Source of the DNA: Mycolicibacterium tokaiense
Lineage (GTDB): Bacteria; Actinomycetota; Actinomycetes; Mycobacteriales; Mycobacteriaceae
Assembly (NCBI RefSeq): GCF_010725885.1
Contig: NZ_AP022600.1
Coordinates: 4,650,001-4,714,000 of the forward strand
Direction: 5' to 3'
DNA length: 64,000 bases
Shown piece after piece: positions 31,228 through 35,935 of this stretch. The position numbers and the translations under genes are program-made. How positions within the stretch are numbered: the stretch's first letter is position 1; each line of letters starts with the position of its first letter. The notes under the pieces were generated by a model. The model ran no database searches and was not told where the DNA came from. It saw only the letters and a program-made list of their open reading frames with translations.

Positions 31228-31854
31228 ATGACGAAAAGAAAGACGGGTTCGACGCCCACGCGCCGTACCCGCGCCAACGGTGACCGTTCCCGCGAGCGCA
31301 TTCTGGACGCGGCCACGACGGTCGCCACCGAGCGTGGGTACGACGCCGCCAGTATCTCGGCGGTCAGCGAGCTCAGTGGGCTACCGCCGACGTCTATCTA
31401 CTGGCATTTTGCCGACAAGGACGATCTGATGGCGGAGGTCATCGATCGCAGCTTCGAGCGATGGTCACACGCGTTGAGCCTGCCGGAAATCGGCAGCGCC
31501 GAGGAGCGCGGGCGTGAGATCGGTGCTCAGGTCGCGAAGGCGCTACAGCAGAGCCCCGACTTCTTGAGGTTGGGGTTGAAGCTGGCGCTGGACCGCCGAC
31601 CGGTCGAGTTGCACGCCAAGACGCGGTTCCTGCACAACCGGCAGGCCACTTTTCAGCGGTTCGCCGATGTGATCCGCGCCGTGGCGCCGGGACTTGCCGA
31701 GGCAAAGGTCGAGGTCCTGACCACCTATCTCATCGCGGGCGCCGACGGCATCTTCGTCGCCAACGAGATCGAGGACAATCCGCAGCGCTTCAGCGATCTG
31801 TTCGAGTTGCATGCACAGCTGGTGTTCGAGGCGGCCGTGGCAATGGCGCCGTGA
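31228..31854 (+). CDS. TetR/AcrR-family regulator
   Basis: A 208-residue regulator. The N-terminal helix-turn-helix reads RERILDAATTVATERGYDAASISAVSELSGLPPTSIYWHFADKDDLMAEVI, preceded by a basic arm of about 20 residues. The C-terminal ligand domain is all-helical and its ligand is unknown. ATG 31228 has GGGAGG upstream. Divergent orientation and the palindrome in the shared region suggest it controls the sulfatase gene. Its stop lies 34 bases from one copy of the 76-bp direct repeat. Confidence 0.9.
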   Translation: MTKRKTGSTPTRRTRANGDRSRERILDAATTVATERGYDAASISAVSELSGLPPTSIYWHFADKDDLMAEVIDRSFERWSHALSLPEIGSAEERGREIGAQVAKALQQSPDFLRLGLKLALDRRPVELHAKTRFLHNRQATFQRFADVIRAVAPGLAEAKVEVLTTYLIAGADGIFVANEIEDNPQRFSDLFELHAQLVFEAAVAMAP

Positions 31855-31888
31855 TCGCGCCACCGTCGGGGCGCGGACGCCTGATCAG

Positions 31889-31964
31889 CCGCCCTCCTCG
31901 TCCAGCCGCGCCAGGATGGCCTCGGCCGTCGCGGGATCGGTGACCAGCTGATTGAAGTAGCCGC
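31889..31964. repeat. 76-bp direct repeat, left copy (SorC gene 3' end)
   Basis: Identical over 76 bases to 34766-34841. On the minus strand it encodes the last 25 or so residues of the SorC regulator (YFNQLVTDPATAEAILARLDEEGG), ending here with GGC and TGA. No regulator sequence lies on the other side of the repeat; similarity stops abruptly at 31965. This copy is probably the original chromosomal 3' end, left beside the TetR gene when the element inserted. Confidence 0.9.
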
Positions 31965-32208
31965 ATGCATCGGACACCGTTACCGACATCGACATCTGCT
32001 TCCGCGACTCGCAGCACCATGGCGTATTGCCGGACCTCACCGCCGCGTTGGCGTAGCGGGCGCGGTTGAGATAGACACCAGACGAGGATCTCGCGCGTTT
32101 CTGTTGTCTGGTGTCATTCTCAATCTGTTCCGAAAATCCCTGTGCCACATGAGTATCTGCTGTCACATTGCGCCGGTTCTTGTCGGTGGCCAGGTCTAGT
32201 TTCGAGGC
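31965..32208. other. Noncoding left part of the DUF222 element
   Basis: Together with the left repeat, this makes up the gene-free stretch between the TetR gene and the DUF222 gene. It holds a perfect 10-bp inverted repeat, GACACCAGAC at 32074-32083 and GTCTGGTGTC at 32106-32115, with a 22-base loop. A TCTAGT -10-like element at 32195-32200 sits 8 bases before the DUF222 start. A 93-codon minus-strand frame (31885-32166) ends in the repeat, but its upstream part matches nothing I recognise. Confidence 0.6.
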
Positions 32209-33612
32209 ATGGGAACGTCAGCCGTCGCCGATCGAGAGGCGATGCTGGCTGCCCTGACCCAGATGGAAACCCTGCAAGCGCAGATGAACTCACTGTCCAT
32301 CGACGCCTTCACCCCGCTGGAGTTGTTGGACCTGCAGCAGCGCCGCGAAACCCTGGCCTGGTTACAGCCCGTCCTCGACCACACGATCTACCAACGCCTG
32401 CGCGCCGAATGCACCCCGAAAGAACTCGGCGCCAGCAGCTACACCAAAGTCCTGGCCGCCCGGCTGCGGATCAGCGAAGCCGAAGCCTTCCGGCGCCTCA
32501 AAAACGCCGAACTCCTCGGCCCGCGCACCGCCCTGACCGGTGAGCCGCTGCCCCCCGCGTTGCCGAACGTCGCCGCCGCCCAGGCGAAAGGCCAACTCGG
32601 GTCCGAGCATGTCAGCGAGATCAAGTCGTTCTTCCGCACCCTGCCCCACTCGGTGGACTTCCAAGCCCGCGAAGCCGCCGAAACCGACCTCGCCCACCAC
32701 GCCAGCACCCTCGGCGCCGACGGCTTCACCGCCGTCGCCGACCGGCTGAAGTACCTGCTCGACCAAGACGGCACCTTCACCGACACCGACCGCCAAGCCC
32801 GCCGCGGGCTGCGCCTGGGCAAACAACGCCCCGACGGCACGGTCCCCATCTCCGGATACCTCACCCCCGAAGCCGCAGCCACCTGGGAAGCGGTCAAAGC
32901 CAAACTCGCCGCCCCCGGGATGTGCAACCCCGCCGACGACACCCCACAAGTCGACGGCGAGCCGGATCCCGATACGGCGGCGAAAGATACGCGCACGCAG
33001 AGTCAACGCGACCATGATGCGTTCTTGGCCGCCGGGCGCGCGGTCCTGGCCTCCGGTGATCTCGGCCAACACAAGGGATTGCCGGCGACGATCATCATCC
33101 GCACCGAACTCAAGGACCTGGAGAAGGCGGTCGGGCACGGGCTCACCGCTGGCGGGACGTTGATTCCGATGCGTGACGTCATCCGGATGGCGTCTCACGC
33201 GTACCTCTGGCTGGCGCTGTTCGACGGCAAGGGTGTGCCGCTGCATCTGGGGCGTACCCGCCGCACCGCCTCACCGGGGCAGCGCATCGTGCTGCTGGCT
33301 CAGCACCGGGGCTGCACCGCCCCGGGCTGCACCGCCGACGGCTATCACTCCGAGGTGCACCACGCGAACAAAGACTGGAAAGACGGCGGCAACACCGACG
33401 TCGAGGACATGACTCTGGCGTGCGGGCCGGACAACAGGATGGTCGAGACCACCGGCTGGACCACGAGGAACCGCCCCGAAGACGGCGTCACCGAATGGGT
33501 GCCGCCACCAGCGTTGGACTGCGGGCAATCCCGCACCAACCCGTATCACCACCCCGACCGCATCCTCGCCCCCGACGAACCCGACGAAGACCCACCCGGC
33601 GACGACCCCTGA
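32209..33612 (+). CDS. DUF222/HNH endonuclease-like protein (13E12 repeat family)
   Basis: A 467-residue protein. About residues 1-330 form the DUF222 domain (LDLQQRRETLAWLQPVLDHTIYQRL, TKVLAARLRISEAEAFRRL, GYLTPEAAATWEAV). A C-terminal HNH domain at about residues 355-410 has zinc-type cysteines in HRGCTAPGCTADG and the catalytic EVHHANKDWKDGGNTDVEDMTLACGPDNRMVE. The family is multicopy and repeat-associated in mycobacteria, as in REP13E12, but its biochemical role is not established. No Shine-Dalgarno is visible and the -10-like TCTAGT suggests a leaderless start at ATG 32209. It appears intact. Confidence 0.9.
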   Translation: MGTSAVADREAMLAALTQMETLQAQMNSLSIDAFTPLELLDLQQRRETLAWLQPVLDHTIYQRLRAECTPKELGASSYTKVLAARLRISEAEAFRRLKNAELLGPRTALTGEPLPPALPNVAAAQAKGQLGSEHVSEIKSFFRTLPHSVDFQAREAAETDLAHHASTLGADGFTAVADRLKYLLDQDGTFTDTDRQARRGLRLGKQRPDGTVPISGYLTPEAAATWEAVKAKLAAPGMCNPADDTPQVDGEPDPDTAAKDTRTQSQRDHDAFLAAGRAVLASGDLGQHKGLPATIIIRTELKDLEKAVGHGLTAGGTLIPMRDVIRMASHAYLWLALFDGKGVPLHLGRTRRTASPGQRIVLLAQHRGCTAPGCTADGYHSEVHHANKDWKDGGNTDVEDMTLACGPDNRMVETTGWTTRNRPEDGVTEWVPPPALDCGQSRTNPYHHPDRILAPDEPDEDPPGDDP

Positions 33613-33681
33613 GCGTGGCGAAACCACCGACCAGCCGACGGACCACCAGGGCCGCCGGCCACCGGTGCGTGGCGCCCTAGA

Positions 33682-34757
33682 TGTACTCGGCCATCAGGTT
33701 GGTCGCAGTCGGCTGATCGGTGGTAGCCCGTCGAGTGCGCTGTGGCGGCGTTGAGTGTTGTAGAACTCGACCCAGGGTGCAAGGGCTTGGGCTCGGTGTG
33801 CGTTTGATGCGAACACCCGGTGATAAGACCATTCTGTTTGCAGGGTGCGGTTATAACGCTCCACTTTGCCGTTTTGCCAGGGGCAGTGCGGCTTGATGAA
33901 TAGATGCCGGGCGTTGAGTGCGTCGATGGCCGCAGCGACCGCTGCTGAGCGGCGATAGCTCAGATGGTTGTCTGTGATGACCCGTTCAATGTGCGGAATG
34001 CCCTGGGATTGAAAGTATTGCGCGGCCCGAGAGATGAACCCCGCGCAGGTCGCGCCTTTCTCGTCAGCGTGGATCTCTGAGTACGCAAGCCGGCTGTGGT
34101 CATCGATCATGGAGTGCACGTAGTCATAGCCGATTCCGCGGCCACGGACGTCTTCGCTGCGCCCGTGGGCACGCCATCCGCCACCGTCGGGGATACGGCC
34201 AAGCTTCTTGACGTCGACGTGCACCAGTTCGCCGGGGTGTTCGCGTTCATAGCGTCGTGTGCTGGCCCGGGAGGCTTTGATCACCGCACCGGTCATCGGA
34301 TCGCAATCACGCAGGTACGGCACGCCGCGGCGCCGCAGAATCCGTGCCACTGTCCGGGCAGGGATTCCCAGCTCAGGCCTAGCCAGTCCTGGCCCCGGCG
34401 ATGCTTGCGCCGCGCGGCGACTACTTGGCGTTCTACCCGTGCCGAGGTGCGCGTAGGGCTGTGGTGCGGCCGCGAGGACCGGTCGTAGAGTCCGGCTTCG
34501 CCTTCGGCGGCGAACCGGCTAATCCAGGTGTGGACACACTTGCGGGAGATCCCCATCGCGTCGGCGATATGGGCCTGTTTCCAGCCCTGCTGGTAGCGCT
34601 CGACGATGAGCCTTCGCCCATGCAGCGTGGTGCGGGCATTACGGTGAGACACGAGAACCTCCGGGTTGGTGATGGGCCTTCGACAAGCCACACCTCACCC
34701 GGAGGTTCTCCTCACATCAAGCCAACACGCCCGCTACCAACGTCACGGCTGAGTACA
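33682..34757 (-). mobile_element. IS481-family insertion sequence
   Basis: A 1076-bp element. The ends begin TGTACTC in inverted orientation and match at 23 of the first 30 bases. It is flanked by perfect 6-bp target duplications CCTAGA at 33676-33681 and 34758-34763, the NCTAGN target type known for IS481. It holds one transposase gene on the minus strand, now frameshifted. It inserted at the junction of the DUF222 element and the SorC gene; the duplicated CTAG contains the SorC stop codon, so the regulator survived. Confidence 0.9.
33694..34652 (-). pseudogene. IS481-family transposase, frameshifted
   Basis: The first part (from GTG 34652, with GGAGG upstream) encodes SHRNARTTLHGRRLIVERYQ and a helix-turn-helix (HIADAMGISRKCVHTWISRF). 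It then reads RRGQDWLGLSWES and loses the frame near 34376-34379. The second part continues as PELGIPARTVARILRRRGVPYLRDCDP and carries the DDE core (VHVDVKKLGRI, SMIDDHSRLAYSEIH, WQNGKVERYNRTLQTEW). One missing C in a GGCCT stretch explains the shift. A programmed frameshift is unlikely because IS481 transposases are normally a single frame. The stop lies inside the left terminal repeat. Confidence 0.88.
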
Positions 34758-34758
34758 C

Positions 34759-35793
34759 CTAGACCCCGCCCTCCTCGTCCAGCCGCGCCAGGATGGCCTC
34801 GGCCGTCGCGGGATCGGTGACCAGCTGATTGAAGTAGCCGCCACGGGCACCGGCGATGATGGACTCCACCTTGTCGCTGCCGATGGCCACGCCGATGGTC
34901 ACCGGAATGTGGCGCAGCGCTTCGAGTTCCAGTGCGATCAGCCGGTCGGCGCCCTCGAAGGGGATCTCGGTGCCGTCGCGGTCGTAGAACCGTGAGCACA
35001 CGTCCCCCACGGCGTCGCGCAGCGAGGTGGAGCGGGTGGGCACGAACTGCGGGATGTCCTTGCGCAGCAGGGGCGGCGCACCGACGCCCATGAGGGCGCA
35101 CCGGGCGTGCGGCCACAGATGCAGCACCCGTTGGATGCTGGGGTCGTTCAACAGCGACGGATAGAGGTCGGGACCCGGAAGTGCCGGTGCGAAAAGGTAA
35201 TTCGCGCGCCCACCCACGCGGTTGGCCACCAGTCGGGTGATCTCGTTGGTCTGGTACCACTCCTCGGGTTGGTCATTGCCGCCCACGGTGGGCGCCACCA
35301 GAACACCCGGCAGCGGCACCAGATCCACCTGCGCCACCTCGTAGACCGTCCGGCCGGACGAGACCAGCAGCACGTCGCCGGGTAACAGACCGGCCTGGGT
35401 CAGGGCCCGTCCCACCGCGGGCGCCAGCGCACCTCCCATGACGTCCAGCACGGTCCGGCCGGGTCCGGCGACGGGCATGGGCATGCTGAGGAAGACCTTC
35501 GCCAGCGACAGCGCCCGGGTCAGCCGGTCGGCGAGGTCGCCGGAGGAGATTTCGGCGGGCGGTACCACCTCGATGCGGACGATGCCGCGGCGTTTGGCCT
35601 CGGCCAGCAGGCGGCTCACCGTTGCGCGGCTGCACCCCAGCTGGGCGGCGACGTCGGCCTGGGTGGCGTCCTCGGTGTAGTACAGCCGGGCCGCCGAGTA
35701 CAGCAGGGACGCGGAGAAGTGGCCGGCCTCGCCGTCGGACATCGCGGCGACGTGACCGGCGGCCGGACTGGGCGACTGCGCAGGTCGAGGCAC
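34759..35793 (-). CDS. SorC-family sugar-binding transcriptional regulator
   Basis: About 344 residues. An N-terminal helix-turn-helix (SLLYSAARLYYTEDATQADVAAQLGCSRATVSRLLAEAKRRGIVRIEV) is followed by a SorC sugar-phosphate-sensing domain (VGRALTQAGLLPGDVLLVSSGRTVYEVA, VAPTVGGNDQPEEWYQTNEITRLVA, IGVAIGSDKVESI). GTG 35793 is the preferred start; ATG 35742 (MSDGEAG) is a possible shorter one. It is divergent from the sugar-alcohol operon and, by analogy with EryD of the Brucella erythritol locus, likely represses it until an intermediate accumulates. Its last codons and stop were rebuilt by the inserted element. Confidence 0.9.
   Translation of the reverse strand: MPRPAQSPSPAAGHVAAMSDGEAGHFSASLLYSAARLYYTEDATQADVAAQLGCSRATVSRLLAEAKRRGIVRIEVVPPAEISSGDLADRLTRALSLAKVFLSMPMPVAGPGRTVLDVMGGALAPAVGRALTQAGLLPGDVLLVSSGRTVYEVAQVDLVPLPGVLVAPTVGGNDQPEEWYQTNEITRLVANRVGGRANYLFAPALPGPDLYPSLLNDPSIQRVLHLWPHARCALMGVGAPPLLRKDIPQFVPTRSTSLRDAVGDVCSRFYDRDGTEIPFEGADRLIALELEALRHIPVTIGVAIGSDKVESIIAGARGGYFNQLVTDPATAEAILARLDEEGGV
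34766..34841. repeat. 76-bp direct repeat, right copy (within the intact SorC gene)
   Basis: Perfect copy of 31889-31964. Here it forms the real 3' coding end of the SorC regulator. The reading continues GGC GGG GTC and stops at TAG (34759-34761), adding one Val relative to the left copy. Confidence 0.9.
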
Positions 35794-35809
35794 CTCACGA
35801 GTATGGCAT

Positions 35810-35848
35810 TGAACACTTGTGCACGCCTGGAGTTCGGTGAACATTCGT
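35810..35848. promoter_or_regulatory. Candidate SorC operator: two direct repeats
   Basis: TGAACACTTGT (35810-35820) and TGAACATTCGT (35838-35848) match at 9 of 11 bases, 28 bases apart, between the SorC start and the operon promoter. SorC/CggR-type regulators bind paired direct half-sites, so this fits an operator serving both directions. Confidence 0.5.
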
Positions 35849-35850
35849 TC

Positions 35851-35878
35851 TGGACAAATATGCAGCAGGTCGCATAGT
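35851..35878 (+). promoter_or_regulatory. Candidate promoter of the sugar-alcohol operon
   Basis: TGGACA (35851-35856), 16 bases, then CATAGT (35873-35878): close to a SigA promoter. The start point would be near 35885, giving a leader of about 50 bases before ATG 35936. It directly abuts the paired TGAACA repeats. Confidence 0.5.
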
Positions 35879-35935
35879 GTGACCCCACCCACACTGGTGC
35901 TGGGGTGTGCGCCGACGAAAACCAGGAGCTAGCTG

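Follow-up and report, generated by a model that had tools for sequence, protein, structure and literature searches.

A DUF222 gene between two 76-base copies of a SorC gene end in Mycolicibacterium tokaiense: an insertion more probably due to a mishap in DNA repair than to an integrase

We analysed a 64,000-base window of the Mycolicibacterium tokaiense genome (contig NZ_AP022600.1, positions 4,650,001 to 4,714,000), in which a gene of the DUF222 family lies at the 3' end of a gene for a SorC-type regulator. A preliminary description of this DNA had placed two identical 76-base copies of the SorC end at 31889-31964 and 34766-34841, and our check of the window sequence confirmed both the positions and the identity. 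The copies agree at every base, the base beyond them differs on both sides, and they hold 76 of the final 77 SorC coding bases. No third copy was found on either strand of the window, and no further copy with up to 12 mismatches was found in 435,990 bases of the genome outside it. The left copy ends ...ARLDEEGG-TGA and the right copy ends ...ARLDEEGGV-TAG, with the TAG supplied from the insert side. The reading frames agree with the earlier account of both endings, and SorC stays readable, as expected of the insertion into a gene 3' end that this account had described. The added valine is probably harmless, because the SorC ends of 29 relatives vary in length and stop codon. From left to right, the locus holds the following features.

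31228..31854, plus strand: TetR-type regulator, the convergent neighbour, which marks the original downstream side
31889..31964, minus strand: left copy of the 76-base SorC 3' end, with the original stop TGA outside it at 31885-31887
31965..32026: 56-62 bases without assigned origin, between the repeat and mutT-derived DNA
32027..32056, plus strand: copy of the 3' end of a NUDIX (mutT-type) gene, its final 30 coding bases reading LPDLTAALA-stop (99% identical to the L003/L130 flank; Pfam NUDIX; similar ending in relatives)
32066..32123: hairpin with 18-base arms, 89% complementary, present too at loci L130 and L298
32133..32159, plus strand: conserved left end of the DUF222 unit (AAAATCCCTGTGCCACATGAGTATCTG); the similarity to L128, L129 and L131 begins close to it
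32180..32202, plus strand: perfect PafBC-type promoter, TTGTCRGTG-N8-TANNNT, ending 6 bases ahead of the ATG
32209..33612, plus strand: DUF222 gene, 467 amino acids, with a degenerate HNH region
33613..33669, plus strand: 3' stretch common to L130 and L131
33670..33681, resuming past the insertion sequence at 34764-34765: right-junction bases without assigned origin, with no match to L130
33682..34757, minus strand: IS481-like insertion sequence (IS), 1,076 bases, with the target duplication CCTAGA at 33676-33681 and 34758-34763
34759..35892, minus strand: SorC-type regulator, the target gene (Pfam Sugar-bind, PF04198)
34766..34841, minus strand: right copy of the 76-base repeat, continuous with the remaining SorC gene, whose stop TAG is at 34759-34761

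The insert measures 2,801 bases in total, and 1,719 bases once the IS481-like IS and one copy of the repeat are subtracted, which bears out the earlier figure of about 1.7 kb. Only the DUF222 gene and the IS481-like transposase are encoded in it, and the statement that it contains no integrase holds; neither the open reading frames nor the Pfam matches of the insert gave an integrase or transposase within the DUF222 unit. The left 62 bases had no convincing second place in the same genome (next best E 0.19), and a comparison with plasmid and phage records returned nothing convincing. About 14 bases at the right junction also have no placed origin.

To place the remainder of the insert, we compared it with the other DUF222 copies of the genome, which carries 39 DUF222 Pfam matches at 37 places. 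The window copy was closest to the one at L003/L130 (at about 395 kb), located behind a NUDIX gene (PF00293, 61.8 bits), here called mutT-type. The alignment covered 1,653 bases at 94% identity, and left of the gene 177 of 179 bases agreed (32030-32208). Loci L128, L129 and L131 gave no BLAST match left of about 32131, and so lack the NUDIX end and the hairpin. The NUDIX gene ends in LPDLQAALA in G056, the genome that matched best among 297 of the genus (the window's own set aside), and has related, varying endings in ten more relatives. Because the gene ends alike in G056 and these ten relatives, the NUDIX-gene end in the insert is, judged from these endings, host DNA, and its L003/L130 locus is the likely donor. 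The proposal of one site-specific end common to all copies gained no support: the left end of the window copy is NUDIX-gene DNA. A decayed DUF222 copy, L298 (2142-2330, at about 6,095.2 kb), carries the NUDIX-gene end, the hairpin and the left end; a small part of the gene start follows in inverted orientation, and the gene body has been lost. This copy is 88% identical to the left part of the window copy over 151 bases. When the left 62 bases were compared with the stretch preceding the mutT-like end in L298, shuffled sequences equalled the score in 5% of cases with the shared GGCGT and in 14% without it.

An alignment of the TetR-SorC junction in relatives had been proposed, and it gave an empty site with a single repeat copy in G056. 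The TetR-side and SorC-side matches in G056 (about 85-89% identical) overlap by the 76-base region, with no insert, and the SorC gene there ends GGA-TAG. Absence in G056 would by itself be no proof of a gain here, as recombination between the repeats could restore an empty site. The identity of the repeat copies and the 2 differences in 179 bases of donor flank, while G056 is only about 85% identical, speak for a recent insertion. In 29 of 29 relatives, a tblastn search with seven DUF222 proteins, in which the positive control was detected, revealed nothing related to DUF222 up to about 1.5 kb away from SorC.

Exact flank-to-flank repeats were sought at 76 DUF222 loci in three sets, which may overlap: 30 loci of this genome (of the 39 Pfam matches) with 1.5-kb flanks, 26 of 37 loci in other genomes after 11 short or cut loci were dropped, and 20 loci in six further genomes. 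In the first set the window copy alone exceeded 14 bases, and mismatched-locus controls reached 16 bases, four pairs that share long repeats aside. The longest flanking repeat in the second set was 14 bases. The third set showed 21-23 bases at L281 and L282 (lying about 1 kb or farther from the match on one or both sides, one being simple sequence) and at most 16 bases elsewhere. The preliminary description had taken such repeats as a signature of DUF222 movement, and a long one was found at 1 of the 76 loci only; it had also held that no repeats at other DUF222 loci would point to a local duplication and not an insertion mechanism, and such a lack of repeats elsewhere was largely what we obtained. 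Since the repeat is largely missing at other DUF222 loci, it appears to belong to this event and not to the family. A mismatch-tolerant search around the inferred unit ends at 36 loci gave nothing beyond controls (best L160 at 15.5; controls at most 17), with search windows that miss the repeats of the window copy and of L137 (described below), both of which score low there.

The copies themselves form families with a common unit of about 1.3-1.75 kb that has abrupt ends, one ahead of the promoter and the other near the stop codon. Genome G031 has three copies, 99.5-100% identical, in different places, and the copies of G029, G016, G012 and G026 are 95-99% identical; by eye, the unit left ends of G031 and G029 resemble that of the window. 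The left-end motif with at most one mismatch matched the genome 12 times, 11 of them at DUF222 loci, and the exact match away from a DUF222 gene was L298. With two mismatches there were 15 matches, 13 at DUF222 loci, and six for the reversed control.

The PafBC-type promoter of the window copy is a perfect match to the consensus as quoted in an excerpt of PMC5656591. The genome has 11 perfect sites of this type and none of the reversed pattern. Seven of the 11 precede DUF222 genes (one, at L157, is broken), and the remaining sites stand before recA, before uvrA, before a LysM gene that nrdR follows, and before an unclassified start (L277). There are four perfect SOS boxes in the genome, two of them ahead of DUF222 genes. 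Under a rule set after the data had been viewed (PafBC with at most two mismatches or SOS with at most one, within 300 bases), a damage-type promoter was present at 31 of 36 DUF222 loci; control windows gave 0/632 for SOS with one mismatch and 1/632 for PafBC with two. The remaining five loci (L152, L153, L154, L156 and L160) have a Mutator/IS256-type IS directly upstream. Before the DUF222 gene of L131, a perfect SOS box overlaps with a perfect PafBC-type promoter (L131:6287-6313; 4,925,286-4,925,312). Two adjacent WYL genes at about 5,517.7 and 5,518.7 kb may be pafBC. In excerpts of the literature, 13E12 genes are linked to LexA in M. tuberculosis (PMC4181829, PMC5005354), "five putative HNH endonucleases" appear in the context of M. 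tuberculosis LexA (PMC8151990), and the 13E12 family is given mobile-element characteristics, active upon DNA damage (PMC5005354, citing Davis et al. 2002). The literature excerpts consulted gave no statement that PafBC sites mostly precede DUF222 genes.

The gene had been described as DUF222/HNH. The DUF222 part of this name stands (PF02720, 281.3 bits, cut-off 24.4); the HNH part scored below the Pfam cut-off (PF01844, 14.6 bits against 21.4), only a degenerate motif being present here, and the L144 protein of the same genome reached 31.7 bits. By eye, the first His of the HNH region is retained and the later Asn and His are altered, a degenerate form that is conserved among 20 proteins. AlphaFold2 on 20 sequences gave a mean predicted local distance difference test (pLDDT) score of 65.5, good for the first 180 residues and poor for the HNH part, and a Foldseek search with the DUF222 model returned nothing usable (best E 0.26). 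NCBIfam, PHROGs and PADLOC assigned no family to the DUF222 protein. Carriage of the unit by plasmids or phages was considered and rejected: relatives occurred in six records only (5 of 72,556 plasmid and 1 of 50,697 phage records), none of them reaching 60% identity.

We favour, with modest confidence, the reading that a fragment of the host chromosome was copied to the SorC end during repair of a break, and that the 76-base repeat is a by-product and not an attachment (att) site. A chromosome break would have arisen at the SorC end, and a 1.64-kb stretch of the mutT-type/DUF222 locus would have been copied in during its repair, comprising 30 bases of the NUDIX 3' end, the hairpin, the promoter, the DUF222 gene and 57 bases beyond. 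Either of two routes could leave the repeat. Two offset nicks could give 76-base overhangs that are filled in, the copied fragment being captured via end joining; or the repair polymerase could switch template to the mutT-type locus and return 76 bases short of its departure point. The gene bodies would also have been exchanged with other family copies by gene conversion. Capture during break repair fits because the flank is host DNA, both junctions hold unassigned bases, no transposase or integrase was found in the unit, other copies did not show the repeat, and the genome itself contains a likely donor. Expression of DUF222 during such repair is likely, because the promoter is of the damage type. 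Ku is encoded in the genome. In Streptomyces ambofaciens, I-SceI breaks were healed with five inserts from the own genome, 30 bp to 18.8 kb long (PMC5869714); the likeness lies in an own-genome fragment at a break, and the difference is that the excerpt of that source describes no 76-base target duplication. Taken together, a mishap in DNA repair seems to explain the insertion better than an integrase would.

Several points weigh against capture during break repair. The window gene is only 94% identical to that of L130, so that a direct copy requires later conversion or an unseen closer donor, which may lie in another strain. The age of the insertion, and the order of the IS and the insert, come from one relative at about 85% identity (G056). 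Two near-identical G031 units have extra flanks in common, of about 45 and about 20 bases. A duplication of 76 bases is long for end joining, and we know of no exact precedent. L298 starts in the mutT-type gene at most 1 base from the window copy by the BLAST ends, or about 10 by a stricter reading; random breakpoints would seldom yield such a coincidence, and it is the strongest argument against random capture and in favour of a defined left end. A mobile unit stays under consideration because the duplication is long and the left end is shared with L298; we regard it as unlikely. Such a self-mobile, damage-induced DUF222 unit would have a defined left end in the mutT-derived stretch and would move by copying, with the DUF222/HNH protein nicking gene ends at a variable offset and so producing long, variable target duplications. 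It would account for the nearly equal left ends of the window copy and L298, for abruptly ending units of about 1.4-1.6 kb that are 95-100% identical in different places of G031, G029, G016, G012 and G026, for the conserved left-end motif and the damage-type promoters (at 31/36 copies by the post hoc rule), and for an imperfect 19-base repeat seen by eye at the L137 insertion. However, the recent-looking copies L278-L280, L285, L286 and L288-L295 have no exact flanking repeat above 16 bases, three of the four closest copies are without the longer left part, and the HNH residues are degenerate in the subfamily, although kept in that form among 20 proteins. A bolder statement, slightly more doubtful still, would be that the DUF222/13E12 unit is a transposase-free, damage-induced mobile unit whose protein nicks gene ends with an offset, whose copy with a preferred mutT-derived left end fills the break and leaves long, variable duplications, and whose copies are then kept alike by gene conversion.

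Import by recombination from a strain with DUF222 already beside SorC, an unequal join having doubled the 76 bases, seems improbable to us. The SorC ending at the right junction, GGV-TAG, does resemble the GGA-TAG of G056, and the 14 bases without assigned origin at this junction would suit an imported end; but the two copies are identical across 76 bases where G056 already differs, and 29 of 29 relatives are without a DUF222 relative near SorC. Integrative elements that enter gene 3' ends duplicate the gene end and leave the gene readable. The SorC insertion shares both properties, and an integrase-type insertion at an att site could have used a helper integrase encoded elsewhere; we hold this to be very improbable, as the other loci tested show no att-like repeat and the left end consists of mutT-type flank and unassigned DNA. 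Unlike such elements, the insert has no integrase gene and no att core common to other copies tested, the core repeat being present at 1 of 76 loci. As to transposons and insertion sequences, the DUF222 unit has no transposase, and no inverted pair linking its ends was among the best 25 of 31 inverted pairs. As to homing endonuclease genes, which enter homologous sites and are repaired from flanking homology, the window outside the unit does not match the donor locus. The closest likeness is to the REP13E12 or 13E12 family (DUF222, often with HNH), in the DUF222 protein, the dispersed multi-copy repeat of about 1.5 kb (here represented by five family-A copies that have a unit in common), the damage-type promoters and gene conversion. 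What differs here is one insertion with a likely donor, a NUDIX flank, unassigned junction bases and a 76-base target duplication, together with a PafBC-type promoter without a close SOS box and a degenerate HNH region. Excerpts of the literature also mention a prophage attachment site inside the 13E12/REP13E12 repeat.

To our knowledge, DUF222 genes have no established function or mode of spread. The SorC insertion would show one way in which a much-repeated mycobacterial gene family could gain copies: a likely donor can be named for one DUF222 copy, the promoter of this copy places it in one group with recA and uvrA, and DUF222 copies seem, from comparison with a related genome, to evolve together. 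New here are the likely own-genome donor, the unassigned bases at both junctions, the perfect PafBC-type promoter and the apparently homogenised copies. It can now be tested whether DNA damage raises the rate of new copies or of conversion, and whether the DUF222 protein takes part.

The five family-A genes, which include the window copy, are 86.1-94.2% identical within this genome. At the L130, L128 and L131 places, the genes of this genome and G056 are 64.9, 65.3 and 66.0% identical, and the flanks about 75-86%. By these values the family-A copies look homogenised in this genome. Within G056, the L130-place and L128-place copies share 83.8% identity; homogenising is, on this measure, non-uniform there, because the L131-place copy is only 68-71% like the other two. 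Separate insertions into the same gap are possible, since the distance from the NUDIX stop to the unit is about 230 bases in G056 and about 80 here. The window and L130 genes differ at 81 of 1,401 bases, and the differences are clumped (the squared-gap sum was reached in 0 of 5,000 permutations, the longest run in 2%). Another family-A copy has the window base at 63 of these 81 and the L130 base at 62, and gene conversion between family copies would explain the clumping. This agrees with gene conversion between 13E12 copies reported for M. tuberculosis in an excerpt of a 2026 preprint (PMC13061034).

Further loci were also compared with G056. A DUF222 gene is present in both genomes at L128, L130, L131 and L142, and G056 has remnants at L132 and L133 (the latter by eye). 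At L137 the unit is cleanly absent, and at L144, L147 and L157 about 240-380 other bases stand in its place. L129, L148 and L161 have kilobases of different DNA, and at L135 one flank matches. The G056 stretches compared gave no position for L134, L136, L139, L140, L146 and L149, or for the left side of L298. At L137 (5332-6867 of the turned sequence, at about 4,512 kb), next to a tpiA-type gene (by eye), there is a second insertion for which G056 shows the empty site; on its left side it has an imperfect 19-base repeat of the adjoining terminator arm (by eye).

Several insertion sequences accompany the DUF222 genes. The one in the window belongs to the IS481 family and is a separate, ordinary insertion with its own 6-base duplication; its termini match at 23 of 30 bases, and a 99.7% identical copy lies near L146 of the same genome. 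Its transposase (33694-34691) is read in two overlapping frames of 218 and 132 amino acids and scores 207.6 against an NCBIfam cut-off of 224, and this copy may be frameshifted. A 1,493-base IS with a Mutator/IS256-type transposase (98.8-100% identical) was found at seven DUF222 loci (L150, L152-L156 and L160), at differing positions upstream of or in the genes, where target duplications of about 7-8 bases can be seen by eye. This IS seems to favour DUF222 genes as targets. An IS110-type element stands at about the same point between the left-end motif and the promoter at L132, L135, L140 and L161 (family B; Pfam on L132 only). Finally, L131 and L157 have a GAGACTGCAC...GTGCAGTCTCGA hairpin to the left of the unit, which is present in altered form in L140; its pattern has eight matches at six places in the genome, three of which fall at DUF222 loci (L131, L134 and L157).

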